64,000 bases of DNA, from contig JAIWZP010000002.1 of NCBI GenBank assembly GCA_025201375.1, forward strand, positions 1,331,485-1,395,484, read 5' to 3'. The stretch comes from Gongronella butleri (lineage: Eukaryota > Mucoromycota > Mucoromycetes > Mucorales > Cunninghamellaceae). How positions within the stretch are numbered: the first letter of the stretch is position 1; every line of letters starts with the position of its first letter. This document shows, in pieces, positions 19,000-42,680 of this stretch. The notes beneath the pieces were generated by a model that saw only the letters and a list, made by a program, of their open reading frames with translations, made no database searches and was not told where the DNA came from. A program made the translations under genes and the position numbers.

Positions 19000-21900
19000 C
19001 CTTACTTTTCAAGCCCCTGAACAGGGCACACCTCGCGTGACGCATTTTGAACCTTTGACAATGCTATTTGTCGGCAAATACGGATGATAGTCGGCCACTG
19101 TTGTGGAGAAGTGACGCGAAAATTTCAAGGAAGTCCATGCTCCACGGCGGGCATCTCAAGCCAAGCCTCGTTCCCGCCGCGCCGCAAGCGCTCAAGTCTC
19201 AAGCCAAGTGTGCCTCTCGACACGTTGCACGCACAAACCCGACATGGCCTCATTTGTTCAAATCATCATCAAGTTCCGCTCGCTCTCTTTTCTTTTTCCG
19301 TCGATCGCATGACTGACGCGACATGTGGTCTCAGCAGACTCCGACCACGCGCCATCCTTCATCATGCACATCGGTTTCACTATATTTTACTAACCTCAAA
19401 TTAAGGATTTGCGTCCACAGAGAGCTGAATTTTCAAGGAATACGTTAGATATTTGAGGGAACATGTAAGCAAGCGTTTGGCACGTTCTCTGAAAATATGA
19501 CATCGATAGCAAGTCTAGATGGTGAGAAAAGGTGAATGTTGCGAGGAAATATGAGGTTTAGGTTGGGAAAAATAAAATAAAGTGAGAAAATTTTACACTT
19601 TGACGCGCTATGCTCTTGAATTTGCATCTATCCATTTGAAAATCACAGGAAAGGTGCGGCTATACGTGATTTATGTTGTGCTAAAATTTGAAAGTGATTG
19701 AACTTCTTCATGCTTTGCAATCAGGAAATGAGTACATGTCAAAATCGAACAAAAAAAAGCAAAAGACGGAATCATGGCCATTTGATTAGGCCAAACGGAT
19801 TTGTTTCCTTTAAAGGGTTCTCAATTCTATTTAAAAATCGCTCCGTGTATAATGGCATCAAGGTCAAATTGAAAACAGGCGAGTCCAGGGCTCAATTTTG
19901 AAGCAATTTAATCAAAATTAGACACATGGTGCAAGGACCAATGTCACATGGGGTGCTAAAATCTGGCGCTGCCAGCTCATCTGCATCAAGAGCAAATCGA
20001 CATTTTGTCACTTTTTTTCAAAATTAAAATAGGGCAAGATTTCCTTTTAGAGCGATTTCAAATTGAAGGCCTGCACTTGCCCTGCGCCTGGCGGCGCACC
20101 GGGTTCTGGGGTGTGCCTTTTTTTTTCAAAACCAGCGTCGTGGCGTGTCTGACAGCAGGACTTCTGTTGTTTTCTTTCTTTCTTTTCTTTTGCTTCGCAC
20201 GTTGTATCATACACACTCGAACAGGGGGGTGAGCGTCTAATGGGATGACTTGTAGGGCACTGACTTGAGCAATCGCCATGTCTGAAAGTCTCGGACCATG
20301 CTGTGAGGGCTGCTGTGCTGGGTTTTCATCTTTCTCCGCTTTAAACGAACAAACAAAAAGAAAGGGAAAGGGGAAAAGGCTATCAAAACATCTCTGGAAG
20401 GAAGCAAAGGAAAAGAAAGCCGGAGGGTGTGTGGGCCAAGAGACCCAGCAGCCCTCTTGCATAGTCAGTCAGTCCAGCGCTTCGCTTGGACATGACGGTC
20501 AGATTTTCCAAGGGGTGCAGTCGAGGATTTGGAAAGAGCAAAATTTAAGTTATCAGATCGCGACGCCATTCAACCACAGGGTTATGTCACCGCAATGACC
20601 GATGCAGATGCAATAAAGAAAGGAGATGCATCTGCTGGTTTCCGCGTAAATTGCAATTTGCCTCTATTTTTCGTCTCAAGTCAAAGTCGACGAAAATTGG
20701 CCAAAGAGCTGCGAAACAGAGACCACCAGAAAGATCTCAGTCTGTTGTGTACATGGATGTTACAGTAATGATCACTGCAAAAAACGAGATCTGGACAGAA
20801 TTGATGCGAACAGGCTGTTTGCAGGACAACTTTGACGCGTGAAAAACCCCGTCCGACATCGTGTTGCACGCGTCTGTTCGTCATCAATTTCATGCACCTG
20901 GCGTCCTTCTTACTAGTGGGCGCCTCGGCGCGGTTCTATGGACGTGTGTTCCCCATGCAATTCGCGCTTGAAGTTTAATCTAAAATCATGAATTGCTCGT
21001 CAATCACCAGGTTGACCCCACTGTTTTTTTTTGGCGTTTTCCGTGGTTTCTCTCTGCATTGTCTCTTGTGTCGAAGTTTGGTGGAAATCTGAAGACTCAT
21101 TTTTTCAATTTTTAGTTTGGGCGCTCGGCACGACTAAAATTTGATTTGCGTGTGGCGTGCCCCGATGCCTTTTGGCACCTTGCAAGTTAGGTGCCATTCG
21201 AGGTTTCTAGCCCGCCATTTCACACTACACTGTATTTTGGGTCGTCATTGGGACTAGCTGATAGACTTTAATTGCCCTTCTGTTAAAGTGGGCCTTCTGG
21301 GGCGCTTCTCCTGGCACTCTCATGCAAATGGTCACAAATTTGAAACAGATTACAGTGGAGGCATAAACTCGATAAATGCCAAGTTCGTGGGCACCCAGCC
21401 CTCTCCCCGCAAGAATGCCAATTTCAAAAAGTCAATTTATTTTTGCGAAGCGCGATTTGGCGCGTTTCTAAGATCCAAACGGCCGTCAATTTCCACCACA
21501 GGAAGTGGTTCCAATCTGTTTGCACCAAACACGCTCCAAATCAGCAATGTTTCATTGACATTACGAGCGTCTTGATTATAATGCGAAGCATTTAGACAAT
21601 TCCTTCATGCGCTTGTAGAATGTGACTGGCCAATTCGTCTCAATTTTGGTGCGTGTTCGTTGAGCGCGCAAGTCAATGTATACAAAATTTCAGAGCGACC
21701 CGTTCGGCGGATGCTGATAGTTCACCTTCCCTGCAAACATGTGTAGCAATTTATCTTTATTTCCCTTCTGGGGCGCAGAAATATCTTACCAAGCATGACA
21801 CGAGAGTCGCGATCCAAGCGGACGATTTACTGGGAGAATAAGACAACAACAAAAAGGCCGAGAAAAGAGCAAAGGGAGAAAGTGAAAGAGAACTGAACAG

Positions 21901-22776
21901 GATAAAGAAGCAAAAACAGGGAGATTTGGCTATTTATTCCTTTGAAAAGTGCATTTTGAGGGCGAAACACCTCGGTCATCGCCGTCCACATCGCCAAAAA
22001 ATGGGTGCAGACATGCAAATAAGCTCAATCTCCTTTTCCCTTGTCAATGTATCAAAGAGTGCTAAAAAAAACGCAAACAATATTTTTTTTTTTTTTTTTT
22101 TTTTGTCGCTGCTGCACGAATTCTCTCTTCAGGTCGCTGCTAGACACATGACGCTGCAACGCGACCAACAAAAAATACCCCACAGCGTGATATATTCCCT
22201 CTTTTGCCATCATACACAATAAAACCCCTTCTCTTCTCCTTGTTTTTGGGCAATATCATGCCATGCGGCGGGGTGTCTGTGCCACAATTAAAACCCAGAA
22301 GCGATCTTAGCTATCATACCACGACTTGTTACGTCGAAATGGGGTGCCCAAGTGATTTTGTTACAATTTCGCGTTTTTTTTTTTTTTTTTGATTGACGGT
22401 GCGTCCTGGGCTATGGCTCTCCTGAAAGTCGCGCGTGTTCGTTCCAATAATCCTGGTTGGCTGCCGTGTCTTCTCATGGCGTGATTCAGGCTTTTTAGTT
22501 TTGCATTGTCGATTTGTCGTGCTTGTTTTGGGTAAAAAAAAAAAAAAAAAAAGGGGAGGGGGCTGAACGATGCAAGTCGCCAAAACGCACGCTCATGGGC
22601 AAGAATAGCTCGTCTTAAGATTAGGACAAAGTGCGCCGTGTGAGAAAATCACTGGTGGAGTGGGAAGATCATTGGTAAAAAAAAAAAATCGAGCCTTATT
22701 CAATTGCTCTTTTCCTCGGTGTGGAAGAAGATTTTTTTAAAATGATTGATATCCACGGGGGGAAGGAGCCTTTGGT
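19000..22776. other. Gene-poor stretch, nothing recognised
   Basis: About 3.8 kb of mixed-composition DNA with short unconvincing frames, T runs near 22082-22104 and 22374-22390, and one TACAGTA. I found no tRNA, tandem repeat, transposase or conserved domain. Confidence 0.45.
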
Positions 22777-23329
22777 TCATGGGGAAAAGCGTGGGTACAT
22801 TCGCGCGATGGCCACTACAGCGCACTCCAGGTTCGTGGCGTGCGTGTCATTATCTCGAGAGACCACCAGAGACATAATGTGATTGCTTTTGTCATAGCTG
22901 TGGTTGTCGACAATGACGCGGCAATCGTTGTCGTTGGCAATGATGCTGAGCACGTGCTTGTCATTGGCGTAGGGAAGGTTGTGGATGGCCTCGAGCAGGT
23001 CGATGGGGACGAGGAAATCCAGCGCGAATCGCTTTCGTGTCTAATGAGAAAAAAAAAGAATGAGCTTCTGGGGAGTTTTTCATGGCAACCTGTCGTACCT
23101 TTTGCTCCTTTTGCAGGATTTCGTCGCGTGTGGCCTCAAAGATGACACGACAGGCGCGACTGACACTCCACTGGTCGCCAATGACAGTGACGACCGAGTC
23201 ATTTGGCGCGCCTGCTTCTCGGCGGGAAGGCCGCTCAATGGACACCAAAATGGCTGTTTGGGAATTTAAAACGCGCGAAACAACGTCGGCAAAGCGCGTT
23301 TTGATCAGAATGCGCATCACAATATACAT
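22777..23329 (-). CDS. KH-like domain protein (2 exons)
   Basis: Model complement(join(22777..23040,23099..23329)), 164 residues; 58-base intron, phase 0. The first exon encodes beta-alpha-beta then beta-alpha segments (MRILIKTRFADVVSRVL, TAILVSIERP, DSVVTVIGDQWSVSRACRVI) typical of a type I KH RNA-binding domain of the PCBP/Nova kind, but without the GxxG loop. The second exon repeats the pattern more weakly (FLVPIDLLEAIHNLP, IMSLVVSRDND). Loss of GxxG suggests reduced RNA binding. The start could be Met at 23329 or at the next in-frame ATG; additional 5' exons cannot be excluded. It is divergent from the Fanzor gene. Confidence 0.68.
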
Positions 23330-23887
23330 GATGAAAAAGAAGTAAAGAAAAAAAAGAAAATCATGCAGCAAAAAAAAAAGTGGTCTTCAAATGGGAAATG
23401 ATTCTCCCTCCAGGCTTGCGGCATTTTTCGTGAGACTTGCGTGCGCGTGATCATCGCTAAATTGATATCTGCTCTGTTTTTTTTTTTTTTTATGATGGGC
23501 GTCGTCGACTTTTTTTCAGCCAGGCGGTGACCCTTTTTGTTCACCCCAAGACATTGCTGCGGTGCCGCGGCACCTTTTCCACCTCCGCTTGTTGAGCATG
23601 AAAGCAATTTTCAATAATAAAGAGTCGATGCATCCCTCTCAGCCATTTTGCATGAGTGACAATGAATTGATTATTCTTGAAAATGGTCTGCAAGCTCAAG
23701 CTTTATACATTCTCAAGTTTGCCGTTGTGCTGAAAGGAACAAAAAAAAAAAAAAAACGAGCTGTGGGCTGGCAAGCGGAGACTAAAAACATGTCACAGCT
23801 CCCGTTGACATAAAGGAGACACGTCATTTTTTTTCTTTTTCTTTTTTTTCCCACTCTTTTTTTCTTTCTTTTTCTTTTCCGCGTCTT
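23330..23887. other. Divergent intergenic region (KH-like gene / Fanzor gene)
   Basis: About 560 bases with A and T runs. The last 60 bases before the Fanzor ATG are nearly pure pyrimidine (tttttcttttt repeated), matching promoters of other genes here. No terminal inverted repeat was recognised by eye. Confidence 0.45.
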
Positions 23888-25731
23888 ATGGAACGACCTC
23901 CCGGTTCAAGATACAAAGCACACCATCTGGTGACATACGCCATCCTTATCAACATGACACCCGCTGAGTATGCGCTGCACGGGTCGCCAGAGGCGATTGA
24001 GCGCGAGGCCGGTGTCACCGCTGCAGAAGCATTGATGATCTCTTTGGAAGCAAGAAAAGAGCGACAAGGTAAACAAAGCACCGGGCTCCTTTGGATTTTC
24101 TCATCTTTTTTTTTTTTTTTTTTAACTTGCATAGCCCGAGCCGGTCCGCCGTGCCCATCCTGCGGCTCGCAGTATCACCGCTCCCAGCGCGACCGGCGCT
24201 GCCCCAACAACCCACAAACAAGACAGCGTAAGTCTTCCCTTCCCTTTCTTTTTTTTTTTCCCCCTTTTTACGCACTTTTTCTTTTTTTTTCTTTTCTTTT
24301 TTTTTTTTTTTTTTTTTTTTTAGAGGCCGACCGGCGACGGGGCGACGCCCGATTCAACGCACTTAATGCTAATCCACTAGCGCTGGAGCGAGCGACAAAC
24401 ATGCGTGCCTCGGTCTTTTTTGCAACAGTGATGCCCAAGAATGAAACGTACACACGTGTGTTTTCGTTTGCGCGTGCGATCCGGCTCGACGTGGTGGACA
24501 TTTTGCAGCAGCGCATCCGAGAATGCCGCGCGGAGCTGAATAAGGTGTTGCCGATCACTGTGCAATTTCTTGCCGATTTCCTGCTTCATCACCCCCAAGA
24601 GGATGCCGACTTTGTGTTTTCGGGCAATGGATTGTACCAGGCATCCATGGTGGTGCGACAGACGATGCGCCAGGACGGTCAACCTGGCGAACGTGCCAAC
24701 CCACATCCGCGCCTACCCGCCGCGCTCCCCGACCACTGGGATCAGTTTGTGGAAGGCACAGGCATCCGCCGCGTCCAGATTCAGGCAGGCTTTACCACGC
24801 TGCTCTCAGAGGAGATGCGGCCATTCGCAGCAACAATGAAGCGGCACGTCTGTGATCTTCTTGAATTGCGGGTCAAATCGTTTGTCAAATTCAAGATGAC
24901 GCAAATCGAAGTAAGTGGATTCTTATCATTTCTTTGGTCCCTTTTTTTTTTTCAAGCAATTGGCTCACATCGATGCTATTTTTATTTTTTTGTTGTTGTT
25001 TTTCAGGCACCACCGGCCGCCATTGCCGCTGCCAAGGAGCTGATCTGGGAGCAATTCAAAAGTGACCAACCATTGATGATACGTCCCGGCGCTGGCGCGC
25101 CTCAACAAGACGAAAACGGCGAGGAAGATCTGCAACTATTGATGGGCGACCGTGATCACGAGGAGGAGGAGGACGACGACCAAGACCAAGCCGCCCCTGC
25201 ACGTCGTACGCGCGCACGACCGGCCGCCGCAGTCGACAACATGGAGCGCATAGCCGCGCAACACCTGCCCGCCGTGCTTGGCGATGTCGCAGCCGAGGTG
25301 CTGGCCATCCTCGAGGGGCTTGCTGCCGTCAAGCCGCAGGACATGGGCGAAATCACCATTGAATCGCTGCGCTCGCATCCATCCCTGTGCGTCCCCGTCC
25401 ACATGCACATCATGCAACAATATGACACATACCGTGCAGAAGACCCCGAGGACCCTGTCGAGGTCCCCTCGTATACCCTGCTGCCGATGCCAGCGCAGAC
25501 GCCTCGCTTCCTGACGTTAAATGCCAACACGCTAAAACAAGTCATACCACGCAGATTCTTGCCCGCTGCGCATCCATTGCGCGACGATCGTGGCCGTCAC
25601 CGTGGCCTCGCACCTTTTGTAGACCTTGCGCACCAGTTCTGGGCCTTGATCAACTGGCCAAACCTGGGGCTTGGCGTGGACGAGTAAGAAAAATAGGGAA
25701 AAAGAGACGAGAAAAGAAGACAAACGGCGAC

Positions 25732-25775
<44 letters not shown>

Positions 25776-27531
25776 TTTTTTTTTTTTTTTCTTTTTTTTT
25801 TTTTTCTTCCAGGGAGCACCAGCTTCGAGATGGTTTCATCATGGGCCATCAATTCAACGGCGTCATCCGAACAGACGGCGTCCAAGTTCACATTTGTTTT
25901 CGGCGCCTGCGTCGCCCGCAGCCCCCCGCGCTCTTGGACCGTGACTTGACTCATCAGGCCATCGACCTCTTTTCCGCGTCCGGCGTGGACCCCGGCCGCA
26001 AAGTCATTGCCACCTCCGCCTTTGACCCACTGGACGATGACTTTGACGATGAGCGTGCCAATCGTGCCGTGCGACGAGTGACACTGGCGGAATACCGCAC
26101 CATGGCTGGCGAGCAGCAGCGTGCTTTGGCGCTGCAGCACCGCAAGAATGAGCTGCTGCCAGGTCGCGATATCACCATGGCAGATCTGGAGGCACAAATG
26201 CCTTGGGTGCGCACCGCCGATCCGGACACGTACCGTGCGCATGTCGCGTTCCAAATGGAGCACGCCACGACATTGGCTGCCTTTTATGGAGACCACTCTT
26301 CTCGCTCCCGATTTGAAAGCTACAAGGGCAAGCAGAGAGCGCTGGCAACTGCCGCCAATATCGTCCTAGGCGGTGGTAAAAAGTACAACAAGCCGCGGCA
26401 GCTGTCACAACAGCAAGTGCAGCCGCAAAACATGACAAAGTTGCGCCGAAACCGCCGCCATCGAAAGGCCAAGGCGAACCGCCGCCGCCAGGGCCGTCAA
26501 GAGCGCGCCATCGCCGCCGCCGCCGCCGCCGCCGCCACCGCCACCGCAGCACCACCACCAGCCATGGAACAAGCAGCGAGCTCGATGCCACCGCTATCGC
26601 AGCAAGACGACGCGTCCTTCGGCTCTCTCCACGACGACGCTGTCATTGCAGCATTGAACGCCACAGACGTCACGACACCGCCACCACCACCACCTGCTAC
26701 CATGGAACAAGCAGCGAGCGCGATCCCACCACCATCGCAGCAAGACGACGCGTCCTTCGGCTCTCTCGACGACGACATTGTCATCGCAGCTTTGGACGCC
26801 ACAGACGTCACGGCACCACCACCACCCGTCGACCCACCAATCCATGATGCCCATCGTGCGCCACACCCGCGAACGTAAATCAAATGCCACGCCGTCTCCT
26901 ATGGCCGCAAATTACTCATTTTTTTTTTTTTTGTACAGTGCCCAGACGACCATGCGGCCGCGAAAACGCCAATTCCATGGCCGGAATCGAATCAGCCAAA
27001 GTATCCCCGTCGTGGCGTTCGGCGGTGCGCTGATCGCAAAGGACGCCGTGCGCATCCGCGGCCTGCCTGTGGGACGCTCGTCAATGGTCCTGCGCCATTT
27101 GTTCGAACGACAGTTGCGCGGTCTCGTCATGACGGTCGTCACCAATGAATTCCGCACCTCCCGGGTAGGTATCTGGGTGCTAATGAGCTAAAGAAAAAGT
27201 CCACCACTCATTTTTTCTTTTTTTCTTTCTCTTTTTTCTTTGATAGACGTGCGCTCATTGTCACACGCCTGTGATATTGGCACGACGAGATGGCCGCTCA
27301 GTCTTTGGCTCCGTCTTCTGCCCCTCGTGTGGACGAACCGTCGACCGCGACGCCAATGCCGCCAGCAATATGCTCTCCATCTTGCACTCGCAGTCGTTGG
27401 TCGGCCGTCGCCCGCCATCAATGACGCGCCCGCAGCGCGCGCAGCAACCTCCACCACCCCAGCGCCGCCGCCGCCGCGGCCCTGCCGACGACCCTGGCGA
27501 TGCTCGACCAGCGCGACGACGTCGCATTTGA
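23888..27531 (+). CDS. Fanzor (eukaryotic TnpB-like RNA-guided nuclease), 7 exons
   Basis: Model join(23888..24068,24135..24227,24324..24910,25007..25683,25813..26874,26939..27164,27247..27531), 1036 residues. An N-terminal zinc knuckle (CPSCGSQYHRSQRDRRCPNN) precedes a long helical region (FSFARAIRLDVVDILQQRI, SYTLLPMPAQTPRFLTLNANTL). RuvC-I is ASGVDPGRKVIATSA with Asp572. A low-complexity insert (Arg-rich, poly-Ala, Pro-rich, with a 46-residue tandem duplication) follows. Then come VVAFGGALIAKD and VVTNEFRTSRTC with Glu937, the relocated Glu position known for Fanzors. The zinc ribbon is CAHC...CPSC and RuvC-III is DRDANAASNM (Asp977). The tail is Pro/Arg-rich. The frame is intact and all three acidic catalytic positions are present, so it may be active. 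Family members are guided by an omega RNA from the 3' flank. Confidence 0.93.
26564..26830 (+). repeat. In-frame 138-bp tandem duplication inside the Fanzor gene
   Basis: A segment starting ATGGAACAAGCAGCGAGC at 26564 recurs at 26702. The 138-base period equals 46 codons, so the frame is kept. Both copies encode MEQAAS, QQDDASFGSL and DATDVT-type motifs followed by a proline run. The copies have diverged at scattered positions, mostly without disrupting the acidic/proline-rich character. Confidence 0.92.
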
Positions 27532-27989
27532 TGTAAGCATTGGCCCAAAAATGGGTGGAGAACGAGAGAGGTGGCTTCTCTTGGTGGACACAGCCGAAAA
27601 AAAAGGACGACAAACAAATGTCGACGGATTGGGCTCACATCTTTGTAATGCTGTTTTTTTTTTTCAAAGGACCTCGATGACTCCCCCCCCCGCCCAATGT
27701 GCGTAGCCCCCCCCTCTCTCTCCTTCACCCTTTTGTATACCCTTCTATTTCTTTCTCCTTTTCTTTTTCTTTTTTTTTTTTTTACGCCCACGGCTGACAC
27801 CGTGTACAAGTCGCCTTAGGGCGGCTTGTTTAAGGTTTTTTACAATGGTAAGTGAGAAAGAAAAAAAAAAAAAGCGCGGGCATGATCTTTGGCACTCACC
27901 GATTGCTTCCCCATTTGCTCTTTCTACTACAGTAACAGGTGCGACATCATGTTTTATAAAAAAAAAACACTAAGAAGTAAAGAAAGAAA
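27532..27989. other. 3' flank of Fanzor gene
   Basis: Contains a C run near 27684-27711, pyrimidine-rich DNA, the two hairpins at 27789-27829 and then an A run near 27862-27874. In this gene family the guide-bearing omega RNA comes from the 3' flank of the ORF and transposon end, so this is the region to look in. No transposon end was identified. Confidence 0.5.
27789..27829 (+). ncRNA. Two adjacent hairpins, candidate omega-RNA scaffold
   Basis: Hairpin A at 27789-27804 pairs CACGG with CCGTG around a 6-base loop. Hairpin B at 27806-27829 pairs ACAAGTCGCC with GGCGGCTTGT (10 base pairs including one G-U) around TTAG. They start about 260 bases past the Fanzor stop codon and are the strongest inverted repeats seen in this flank. 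Assignment as omega RNA is inferred from position and structure only; a terminator or transposon end is an alternative. Confidence 0.4.
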
Positions 27990-32809: not shown

Positions 32810-33085
32810 TCTTGACCCCCATTGGCCATTTCCATCTTCCACATCCACCCTTGCGGCTCCTTTTCAGCCTCCCCTTTTCCCAACTGTTCTCGCCGTTCCC
32901 CCCAAATTCTCTATTTTCTAATTGGCAACACATAAAAAGGAATTTGTTTTGTTTTCTTTTGATTGGAATAGATGCAATGCAAGCGTAAAAAAAGGGGATT
33001 CAGGGAGAGAGGAACGGATAGGTGATAATAATGAAGAATATGCTGAGAAATACAAATCGAAACAAAACACATTTTTCTTTCTTTT

Positions 33086-40147: not shown

Positions 40148-40400
40148 ATTGCTTCAAAGAAAAAGAAAAAGCGCGAAAAGAAAATAAAAGAGGAACAAGC
40201 TGCGCGACCGCGCATCTGCTTTTATGGTATTTAGCAGTGACGCAGGCTGCATTGCATCTGTTCACAAATCTGTGGCCATATTAAACTTGCAGCGAACGAA
40301 AAAAAAAAAAAAAAAAAAAAAACAGGATTTTTATTGATCCATCAGAAAAAAAAATGACAAAGTCTTTAACAATCCCCAAAAAACAAAAAGAAGATGTAAA

Positions 40401-40472
40401 GGAGGTACTGGGATTCGAACCCAGAACCTGCGGATCTGCAATCCGATGCGATAGCCATTACGCCATACCTCC
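40401..40472 (-). tRNA. tRNA-Cys (GCA), no intron
   Basis: The reverse complement folds as a standard 72-nt tRNA. The 7-bp acceptor GGAGGTA/TACCTCC, the T arm CTGGG-TTCGAAT-CCCAG and the anticodon loop TTGCAGA give anticodon GCA (Cys). The anticodon stem CGGA/TCCG has one end mismatch. Internal A-box-like TGGCGTAATGG and B-box-like GGTTCGAATCC are present for RNA polymerase III. The coding strand ends in CTCC followed by a T-rich stretch serving as terminator. Confidence 0.95.
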
Positions 40473-42680
40473 ATTTACAAAAAATTCAAAAGTATAGTCA
40501 TTTTAAATCTGAGATACGGTTTTTCGGCTAATATTTTAACCGCCGGGTCGCTGCTGCAGCGAAAGTTTTTGATATTCCCCATCATTGGGGAGCGAATGGC
40601 AACTTGAATCAATCTCGATATGCTTTGATTAAAAAAAGAGTGCGTGGTAGCTGCCAAAAAGGTTTGCGGCTGCACACATGCATTCAATTACTGTCTTGAA
40701 TCTTGTCACCATTACAAAAGGTGATTTGAATGAGAATTTACAAGCAAATGCAAGCAGCAAGACAATCAATGCCACTGTAGCAACGGGAGCAAAAACTTAT
40801 TTTGACAATTTTGCATTTTCATGACGCCTTCCATTAACAGTCATTTTGACTGCGCCGCCCTACCAAGAACGCATCGCAGGCTACTTTTTTCGAGGCTAAA
40901 CAACGCCTAGAATGAACGGTGACGTGCAAAAAAGCAGGTTTTCGCGTTTTTCGCGACTTGCATGCGTTTTTCACAGGACGGCGGTATAACAAGCAGACTC
41001 ACTGGATTGCACGTCATACGCTGCAAACTTTGCTGCCTATAGCAGGCTGCTAAAAATCTACAATGTTCTGAAAATGCCACGATAGGTACACTTTTGTACG
41101 CATAAAATCACCCTCTCTATTCGCATTTCGCTTTTTGTACTTGACGCACATTGGATGTCAGAAGCGCCTATTGAGCGCGCCCGATGGGAATCAGTTGTGG
41201 GGCGAATTTCATCAGTATTTGCAGTGTGAGAATCCGTCTTGCAAATTGCGCGTTGCAAAACAAAAAAAAAAAAAAAAGAACGACAGGTTTTGCTGCTTAA
41301 TTCTCTGAGTCAGTGATAATGCTCGTGGAATCACTTGGCTTATCTCAGGGAGAGCGTGTCAACGCTGTGGCAAGTTTAGAACGGTGGGGATTTTCAAAAA
41401 AAAAAAAAAAAAAAAAACTCTATAGCTTTAAAAAGTTTTAAACCATTTAAAAAAGATAAACCATGCACTGTAAATGTGCTTCATGTGTTGCGCTGCTACC
41501 TTACTGTATTTCAAAGAGAACTTATCGATCAGCTCCCGTGAAAATGCGCCAAAATACATTTTTTGCTCCTATCTCGCGTTTTACACATGATGCTGCTGGT
41601 TGATCCGTCCATTTTTCACGACAATGAATAGAGCTTGATGCGCACTGTAATTTTAATGTCTGATGCGAAGCATCATGCTGTACGAAAAACTCGCACATTG
41701 GCTATTTGAAAACGAGAAAGTGTGTTTTCAGACTTTGCTGGCTTGTTGTTGTGCCTCCAGAAATTTTTTACAGCCTGCGTACCTGCCGATGAAATTGGGC
41801 CATTCACGTGTCACGGCCCAGCTCGCGTCGAGTGGTAAACGTGCGCAAAAAGCGCGTGAGCCGACGCGCTCGGAGTTGACGCGTAGTGGCGCGTCGATGG
41901 CGCGTTGAAAAAAAAAAGAAACGAATCGACACACGATAAGATGATACAGTACTCAATAATTGCCAAGCAAGAAGCGTGTGTACATGTACCAGTGTCTGGC
42001 CAAGACGCGCATGGCGTGGCAAGGCAAGCAGCAATCGAATGAATCAAGGAAAAAAGTGAAAGGGAAACAAGCAAGTACTGTAAGCAAGAAATACAAGTCA
42101 AGATACAGTAAGGCATCTGTACAGCCAAAAGTCACGTGCTGCACCCCGACCAGTGTCTAGCCAATGGCGTGTAAGGCGCGGCATTGGTGGCAAATTGAAA
42201 AAAAACGAAAAGAAAAGCAACGAAATGTGCAAGTGAAGCAATTGCAGCGAGCCAGCGACCCTGCGTACGCGTACGCGATCCGCCTGGCACAACCTTCTTG
42301 AAGAAGCTTCGGAGACACCAATTATGGACATCAGCCGATTTTGCAGGCGATCCTCGGATCGATGGAAACGAGGAGCAAAGGCAGTCTTGAATTGGGTTCC
42401 AAAGAAGTGAAATAATCTTTATTTCGATTCAATGAAAGTGGGTCCTTACAGTACGGTACAGTATATACGCGAGGGATGGATGAAGGACAACGGATCGTAC
42501 GAGAAATAAAAAAGGGAAAAAAAGGTGAAAAAACACGAGCAAAGCGAGAGAAGAACCAATGATGGATGGTGTCTTGAAGGGCGAACCAATGGATGGTGCC
42601 TTGGAGAGAACCAATGGAAGGTATATTGATACTGTAGATGATGGTGTTGACAACGGCCGAAAGAACTAAAGAGATGATGT
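40473..42680. other. Gene-poor island, left part
   Basis: Short frames only; A runs near 41263-41277 and 41396-41417. The TACTGTA/TACAGTA cluster starts in this part (from 41512). No conserved domain found. Confidence 0.45.

Follow-up and report, generated by a model that had tools for sequence, protein, structure and literature searches.

According to the available portions of the literature used for comparison (including PMC10432273, PMC11423790, PMC10711439 and PMC3627910), the guide RNAs described for TnpB and Fanzor nucleases are contiguous across the right end of the element (PMC10432273, PMC10711439), a reading that couples the scaffold to the terminal DNA needed by the transposase. 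SpuFz1, the Fanzor1 of Spizellomyces punctatus, has a contiguous 75-nt scaffold across the right inverted repeat and a guide of 14–15 nt (PMC10432273). The Fanzor gene discussed here was found in Gongronella butleri (GCA_025201375.1, contig JAIWZP010000002.1, forward strand, 1,331,485–1,395,484), in a stretch of 64,000 nt referred to as the window, which is the end of a 1.4-Mb contig in an intron-bearing genome of 33 Mb. Coordinates without other label are positions in the window, where the gene lies at 23888–27531; L numbers designate Fanzor copies or loci and C numbers contigs of the same genome. The locus resembles SpuFz1 in encoding a eukaryotic TnpB relative, in a presumed guide from beyond the right end of the element, and in the presence of gene-less elements ('ghost' elements) that keep the RNA part (PMC10432273). 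It differs in that 85 nt with splice-like signals separate the hairpins of the window, the presumed extent of the scaffold, from the flank; scaffold and guide would be contiguous only if spliced.

Fanzor1 proteins are also encoded by Mariner elements with a TA target-site duplication and inverted repeats, some of them lacking a transposase (Bao and Jurka 2013, PMC3627910); the elements studied here have a presumed TA duplication and, in one family, inverted ends. Some of the Mariner elements also contain a second nuclease gene, as does one family here, with an XPG-like gene. They differ in that no splice site at the right border is described in the available text, which has no words starting with 'intron' or 'splic'. 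For IS607 TnpB, an invariant right-flanking base is part of the guide-RNA scaffold (PMC10711439), and the TA or TG(CAA) after the AG in the present elements may likewise be scaffold; that system is bacterial, with a contiguous RNA, and the available text contains neither 'intron' nor 'splic' (PMC10711439). No spliced guide RNA for a Fanzor or TnpB nuclease was found in the literature searched, preprints and most subscription papers being outside its scope. IStrons combine a group I intron with TnpB; the intron boundary is the element end and interacts with guide-RNA production. The IStron intron is self-splicing and removes the whole element, a difference from the presumed spliceosomal-type intron inside the 3' end of the present element. 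An RNA split by an intron at the right end would be new, if confirmed.

Downstream of the Fanzor gene, the following features were located:

27789..27804, forward strand: hairpin 1 of the presumed omegaRNA scaffold, CACGG/CCGTG stem
27806..27829, forward strand: hairpin 2 of the presumed scaffold, 10-bp stem ACAAGTCGCC/GGCGGCTTGT with one G-U pair
27830..27847, forward strand: conserved linker up to the presumed 5' splice site, with TTACAATG as its last bases
27848..27932, forward strand: presumed spliceosomal intron between scaffold and guide, 85 nt, GTAAGTGAG...CTACTACAG, holding a remnant of the element right end
27933..27934, forward strand: TA dinucleotide at the right border, presumed target-site duplication
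27935..27954, forward strand: presumed guide in the flanking genomic DNA, of assumed length

It is rated an even chance that spliceosomal splicing brings the presumed omegaRNA scaffold together with a guide from the flank, with the border of the element as the 3' splice site. The Fanzor transcript, or a shorter one, would carry the presumed scaffold up to 27847. The spliceosome would remove 27848–27932, which holds the right end of the element, and the scaffold would be joined to the TA and the flanking genomic DNA, the latter acting as guide and the TA or TG(CAA) perhaps being part of the scaffold. The nuclease would then cut a matching site beside a target-adjacent motif. The general form of this proposal, in which guide RNAs are assembled by the spliceosome, each insertion makes the flanking DNA the 3' exon of the guide and the DNA-recognition end is spliced out, is put just short of an even chance.

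In a profile search, PF07282 matched at 20 places in the genome: 16 of lineage B, which has endings like WQRDVNAA, plus the window, C12, C2 and C32. The window protein gave at least 55 exon-level matches in the genome, of which seven are the window gene and 48 lie elsewhere (44 of 88 candidates scored). Lineage A is the lineage of the window and was defined by closer exon-level matches to the window protein. The pair on C2 and C32 (L043 and L044) was set apart as a third lineage. The division was made by motifs and similarity, not by a tree.

A GTAA(G/A) donor was found after the coding end or the hairpin module in 25 of the 27 copies of the two main lineages with a 3' flank. L036, which runs off its contig, L029, where the donor was lost by an internal deletion, and the fragments L035, L038, L045, L046 and L048 were left out of this count. 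Lineage A, with the donor in nine of 11 copies examined, shows one or two hairpins after the coding end, a linker ending TACRAWG or similar, and then GTAAG. The distance from stop to donor is 316 nt in the window, 332 in L030, 87 in L031, 114 in L032, 14 in L040, 75 in L037 and 162 in L041. All 16 lineage-B copies have a donor after the stop, GTAAG in 14 and GTAAA in two (L055 and L057), those of L051, L052 and L054 being read by eye. Here the distance is 17–68 nt in 12 of the 13 copies measured and 163 nt in L056, of which the frame stops early; L053 has a second candidate donor at 166 nt after the stop.

The hairpins, where seen, lie upstream of the donor and near it. Their stems in lineage A differ between subfamilies and are mostly still paired, and among several paralogues the stems, read by eye, vary yet stay paired. 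The 70-nt tail of the window folds at a z-score of −3.0. Upon comparison with the copy on C30, the hairpins and linker of the window (27787–27847) are identical at 59 of 60 positions, with one gap column, and the intron part at 69 of 71, against 83% for the preceding untranslated region and 86% for exon 7. Constraint on the presumed intron thus equals that on the tail, in keeping with a right end acting at the DNA level and equally with a role in the RNA.

Donor and border could both be placed, by eye, in 24 copies or ends: ten ends of lineage A, one of them an extra, inverted end in L041; two ends without a listed Fanzor gene; and 12 of the 16 lineage-B copies. The remaining lineage-B copies are L052, L053 and L056, where the sequence stretch ends too early, and L054, where no end was recognised. 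All 24 have GTAA and 22 have GTAAG; the border is AG in 23 and AT in L033. The presumed introns are 66–182 nt long, and the coding introns of the window gene 64–129 nt.

The border was further defined by the identity between related copies, aligned without gaps from the AG in 11 pairs of 18 copies or ends, which are not independent. Identity was 73/110 at positions −20 to −11, a value lowered by indels, and 102/110 at −10 to −1. Past the AG it was 20/22 at +1 to +2, 15/33 at +3 to +5, 15/52 at +6 to +10, 25/99 at +11 to +20 and 23/76 beyond. The homology of related copies collapses at AG plus two bases, and the element border is at the same time the presumed acceptor. Of the 12 lineage-A rows, which include the two ends without a listed Fanzor gene, 11 have TA after the border and the other (L040) has TG. 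In lineage B, TG follows in ten of 12 rows, and the TGCAA common to L003, L006 and L051 belongs to the element.

A genome search with a motif for lineage-A ends gave 21 places and its backward-read control one; a gapped pattern for lineage-B ends gave none in the genome. Two ends without a listed Fanzor gene, on C18 and C78, do not differ in the 45 nt of tail that precede the donor, with 52 gap columns in the alignment of their introns, and retain hairpin (similar to that of the window, CCACGG/CCGTGG), linker, donor and AG.

Intron-like signals were found between donor and border. At most 4% of dinucleotide shuffles equalled the AG-free stretch preceding the border in 11 of 15 representatives; that of the window measures 56 nt, against a shuffle mean of 16. 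A CTNAY branch motif is present in the last 60 nt in all seven lineage-B representatives and in four of the six coding introns of the window gene, and absent from five lineage-A ends. The presumed intron of the window contains CTCAC at −38.

These counts could also be obtained without any intron, if GTAAG and the terminal AG were transposon-end or scaffold sequence resembling splice sites by common descent. Relatedness of the copies makes the donor counts non-independent, and a single base separates the AG from a plain inverted repeat. A relative on C45 has inverted ends at 33033–33058 and 40665–40690; its left end, C45:33033–33058, is an imperfect inverted copy of the right end reading AAAACTG/TA, where right ends mostly read AACAG/TA. 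Given CTG/TA on the left and CAG/TA on the right, the two ends of that family differ just at the place where the right one requires an AG. This difference is suggestive only, as the search pattern itself contained CAG. Two lineages with very different right ends nevertheless have the same donor, spacing and AG and mostly long AG-free zones, and the branch motif recurs throughout the lineage-B representatives as it does in most of the coding introns. Common descent without an intron is considered improbable.

In lineage B, pairing across the junction was found when the flank was joined to the exon tail. Helices of 14, 13 and 15 bp form in L001, L003 and L005, with five pairs beyond the junction (TGCAA or TGCAG against upstream TTGCA or TTGCG), and are continuous only once spliced. 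Over eight lineage-B representatives the summed extension was 33 pairs, reached in two of 5000 draws of random flank 5-mers. With at least three inner pairs required, 27 pairs were counted and no draw of 5000 reached this number. Both sums exceed those of the unspliced arrangement (29 and 18). For the two lineages pooled, the observed value was reached in 8/5000 draws, and in 7/5000 with three inner pairs.

The fold energy of the window is −5.4 spliced and −2.5 unspliced. Over the 24 copies, the mean energy change was −4.2 kcal/mol with the flank, −2.5 with the intron start and −2.1 with control flank pieces, and a gain of at least 4 was seen in 11/24 with the flank, 6/24 with the intron start and 20% of the controls. 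Between L007 and L008, the 5' arm and the first bases after the AG differ and the junction pairing is kept; this is one pair and may be chance.

A number of observations weigh against a spliced guide. The donor is missing, together with the 3' module, from L034 and L039 (in which exon 7 was not found). The coding frame of L042 reads into the donor, and neither L043 nor L044 has a GTAAG between the stop and the right boundary, which ends in AAG. The AG-free test fails in four of the 15 representatives (L042, L040, L004 and L057), and only ten of the 15 contain CTNAY in the last 60 nt. The window border (27932/27933) rests on 7 nt past the homology with C30 and on the CAG/TA ending. In the lineage of the window, the junction helix is 3–6 bp and not above chance (1540/5000 draws), and with three inner pairs required the count was 1 against a null mean of 4.4 (4821/5000). 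The helix TTAC/G|TAA of the window itself has 4 bp spliced and 7 bp unspliced. Two of the eight lineage-B representatives (L002 and L007) and, in lineage A, L030, L032, L033 and L042 are more stable unspliced. The unspliced pairing of lineage B is also above its null mean (29 against 21.8, and 18 against 10.5 with at least three inner pairs), and the lineage-B intron contains a recurring internal block, GGGGAGCATAGCA and variants (by eye), a possible part of the scaffold if the RNA is not spliced.

The last points, with the missing junction-helix signal in lineage A and the contiguous omegaRNA of SpuFz1 across the right end (PMC10432273, available text), favour an intron that is real and incidental: a terminal 3' splice site would let the mRNA use exons and poly(A) signals of the host, and the working omegaRNA would be unspliced and contiguous. 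Such a role would leave unaccounted for the position of the hairpins close upstream of the donor, the retention of donor and AG by two ends without a listed Fanzor gene, and the lineage-B helices of 13–15 bp that splicing alone makes continuous. Most lineage-A introns, moreover, hold repeats also found inverted at the left end of L033, and these are likely DNA-level signals. An incidental intron is regarded as rather unlikely, at roughly one chance in four.

If the guide is indeed spliced, the intron between scaffold and guide would uncouple the RNA scaffold from the DNA ends recognised by the transposase, and nuclear splicing would control nuclease activity. To our knowledge, this would be the first case in which spliceosomal splicing makes the guide of an RNA-guided nuclease. 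Other intron-rich Fanzor hosts would be worth examining, and an annotation of right-end RNAs based on contiguity would miss the arrangement.

The gene preceding this 3' module consists of seven exons, the splicing of which was inferred from the sequence:

23888..24068, forward strand: Fanzor exon 1, with the first ATG of the open frame at 23888
24135..24227, forward strand: Fanzor exon 2, with a CX2CX4HX7C zinc-knuckle-like motif at about 24152–24202
24324..24910, forward strand: Fanzor exon 3
25007..25683, forward strand: Fanzor exon 4
25813..26874, forward strand: Fanzor exon 5, with the RuvC-I DPG, D572 at 25988–25990 and a low-complexity insert
26939..27164, forward strand: Fanzor exon 6, with the relocated glutamate E937 at 27147–27149
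27247..27531, forward strand: Fanzor exon 7, with the zinc ribbon CX2C..CX2C, RuvC-III D977 (27349–27351) and the stop at 27529–27531

The first-pass annotation had described an intact, intron-split Fanzor gene of 1036 codons over seven exons without a stop, and this was borne out. Joining of the exons gave 3111 nt of coding sequence for 1036 aa, with one terminal stop and no internal stop, and the six introns (66, 96, 96, 129, 64 and 82 nt) are all GT-AG. Exon 1 is supported by stretches of L031 and L032 that align to residues 5/6–59 of the window protein. The catalytic and zinc-binding motifs named in that annotation were all read in the joined protein. D572 lies within GVDPGRK (residues 570–576) and E937 within NEFRTSRTC, with six residues between E937 and C944; a DPG and a glutamate six residues before the zinc finger form the Fanzor signature in the available text of Yoon et al. 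(PMC10711439). The zinc ribbon has CxxC at 944–947 and 967–970, and DRDANAASN starts at residue 975, its second D being D977. The profile search it had proposed gave a PF07282 match on residues 933–983 of 36.1 bits (cut-off 26.3), corresponding to a zinc ribbon and RuvC-III of the TnpB/Cas12f type. Its N-terminal zinc knuckle was recovered as the CX2CX4HX7C motif of exon 2, which is kept in all five N-terminal paralogue stretches compared (L031, L032, L037 and two in L036). Residues ~746–870 are a low-complexity insert with a 138-nt tandem duplication (26521–26658 and 26659–26796, 80% identity).

The RuvC-I, RuvC-II and zinc/RuvC-III blocks align across diverged paralogues, with some losses: L030 has a stop, and in L033 the catalytic D is replaced by N. 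In L033 the catalytic Asp (INPGRT) and the border AG (AT) are both gone, which is consistent with joint decay. Between the window and the C30 copy, exons 6–7 up to 27480 gave a synonymous divergence (dS) of 0.30, a nonsynonymous divergence (dN) of 0.07 and a dN/dS of 0.23 over 150 aligned codons, one codon being omitted owing to a stop in exon 7 of C30. Purifying selection is visible on exons 6–7 by this measure. No relative of the window protein was found in a large protein collection at E ≤ 0.01 (7992 candidates scored). Weak matches to solved structures were LaTranC (E 0.016) and TnpB-like L79 (E 0.083), and the lineage-B frame of L004 matched the L79 structure at E 1.6e-4. On these sequence grounds the window gene is an intact Fanzor gene, a eukaryotic relative of RNA-guided nucleases, and its protein a new member of the known Fanzor family.

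The earlier suggestion of an active or recently active element was upheld in part. The purifying selection on exons 6–7 and the 3' hairpin module, nearly identical to that of C30, agree with it; the stop in C30 and the ends of the window copy do not. A search of 14.0–24.5 kb with the C45/C1-type left end, the sole left-end type known here (left ends were found in one family only), gave a best distance of 10, with 8–11 for shuffled sequence. The right end is about 57 nt shorter than that of C30 and is without its subterminal repeats. Mobility of the window copy is doubtful, as no left end was found in this interval and the right end is shortened; it may still code for a functional nuclease and RNA yet be unable to move. 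The same ends, and the low-complexity insert, would suit a remnant that has lost nuclease function, either long domesticated or in decay; the complete set of catalytic residues, the 1036 codons without internal stop and the low dN/dS make such a remnant quite unlikely, with a probability well below that of an incidental intron. The 25 nt from 27933 occur once in the genome at up to three mismatches, and no second target or empty site for the window copy was seen in the genome at this threshold.

Subterminal TTGGCTCAATT-like repeats are inverted at the left end of L033 (by eye). The left flank beside this inverted-repeat end reads CATA if the border is placed after TA, a single, border-dependent observation; CATA is also the target-adjacent motif of SpuFz1 (PMC10432273, available text). 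No DDE transposase was found in ten selected frames of L031, L032, L043 and the window; for the C45 element, the sequence available began after the first 1 kb. The genome contains 74 DDE_3 (Tc1-type) matches, many with equal scores, suggesting recently spread families, and mobilisation could be effected by Tc1-like transposases in trans.

Three candidates for an end or empty site of the window copy were rejected. Pair I2, considered as the left inverted repeat, looks like a chance pair of poly-A/T. The stretch 20302–20496 looks like a separate inverted-repeat element of ~195 bp (by eye), with inverted ends AGGGCTGCTG...CAGCAGCCCT; it matches sequence next to the left end of the Fanzor element on C1 (L033) at 86.5% identity and is absent from the matching L043 sequence. 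The match of 22962–23387 to C67 (97%) is not an empty site, C67 being without the window sequence past the Fanzor gene. This stretch (reverse strand), 500 bp upstream of the Fanzor start, is 97% identical to C67:302100–302488 and its neighbourhood. It is probably a gene fragment, from a recent partial duplication or capture, and its frame in the window has no Pfam match.

Right-end motifs outside the listed Fanzor matches were found at C18:51817, C78:710743, C56:42165, C16:608531, C24:324217, C29:37533, C89:65557, C2:290301, C19:86701 and C33:264247. An XPG/FEN1-like gene is present at L031:1606–2412 and L032:2–943 (reverse strand), divergent from the Fanzor gene in these two related elements, with an XPG_I match of 26.8 bits in L031 (cut-off 24.9) and a weaker one in L032. 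Window positions 20220–22261 are repeated sequence without an open frame of at least 150 aa, with ~69–82% identity to sequence upstream of the Fanzor gene in L043 and L029. A tRNA-Cys gene is located at 40400–40472 on the reverse strand of the window.

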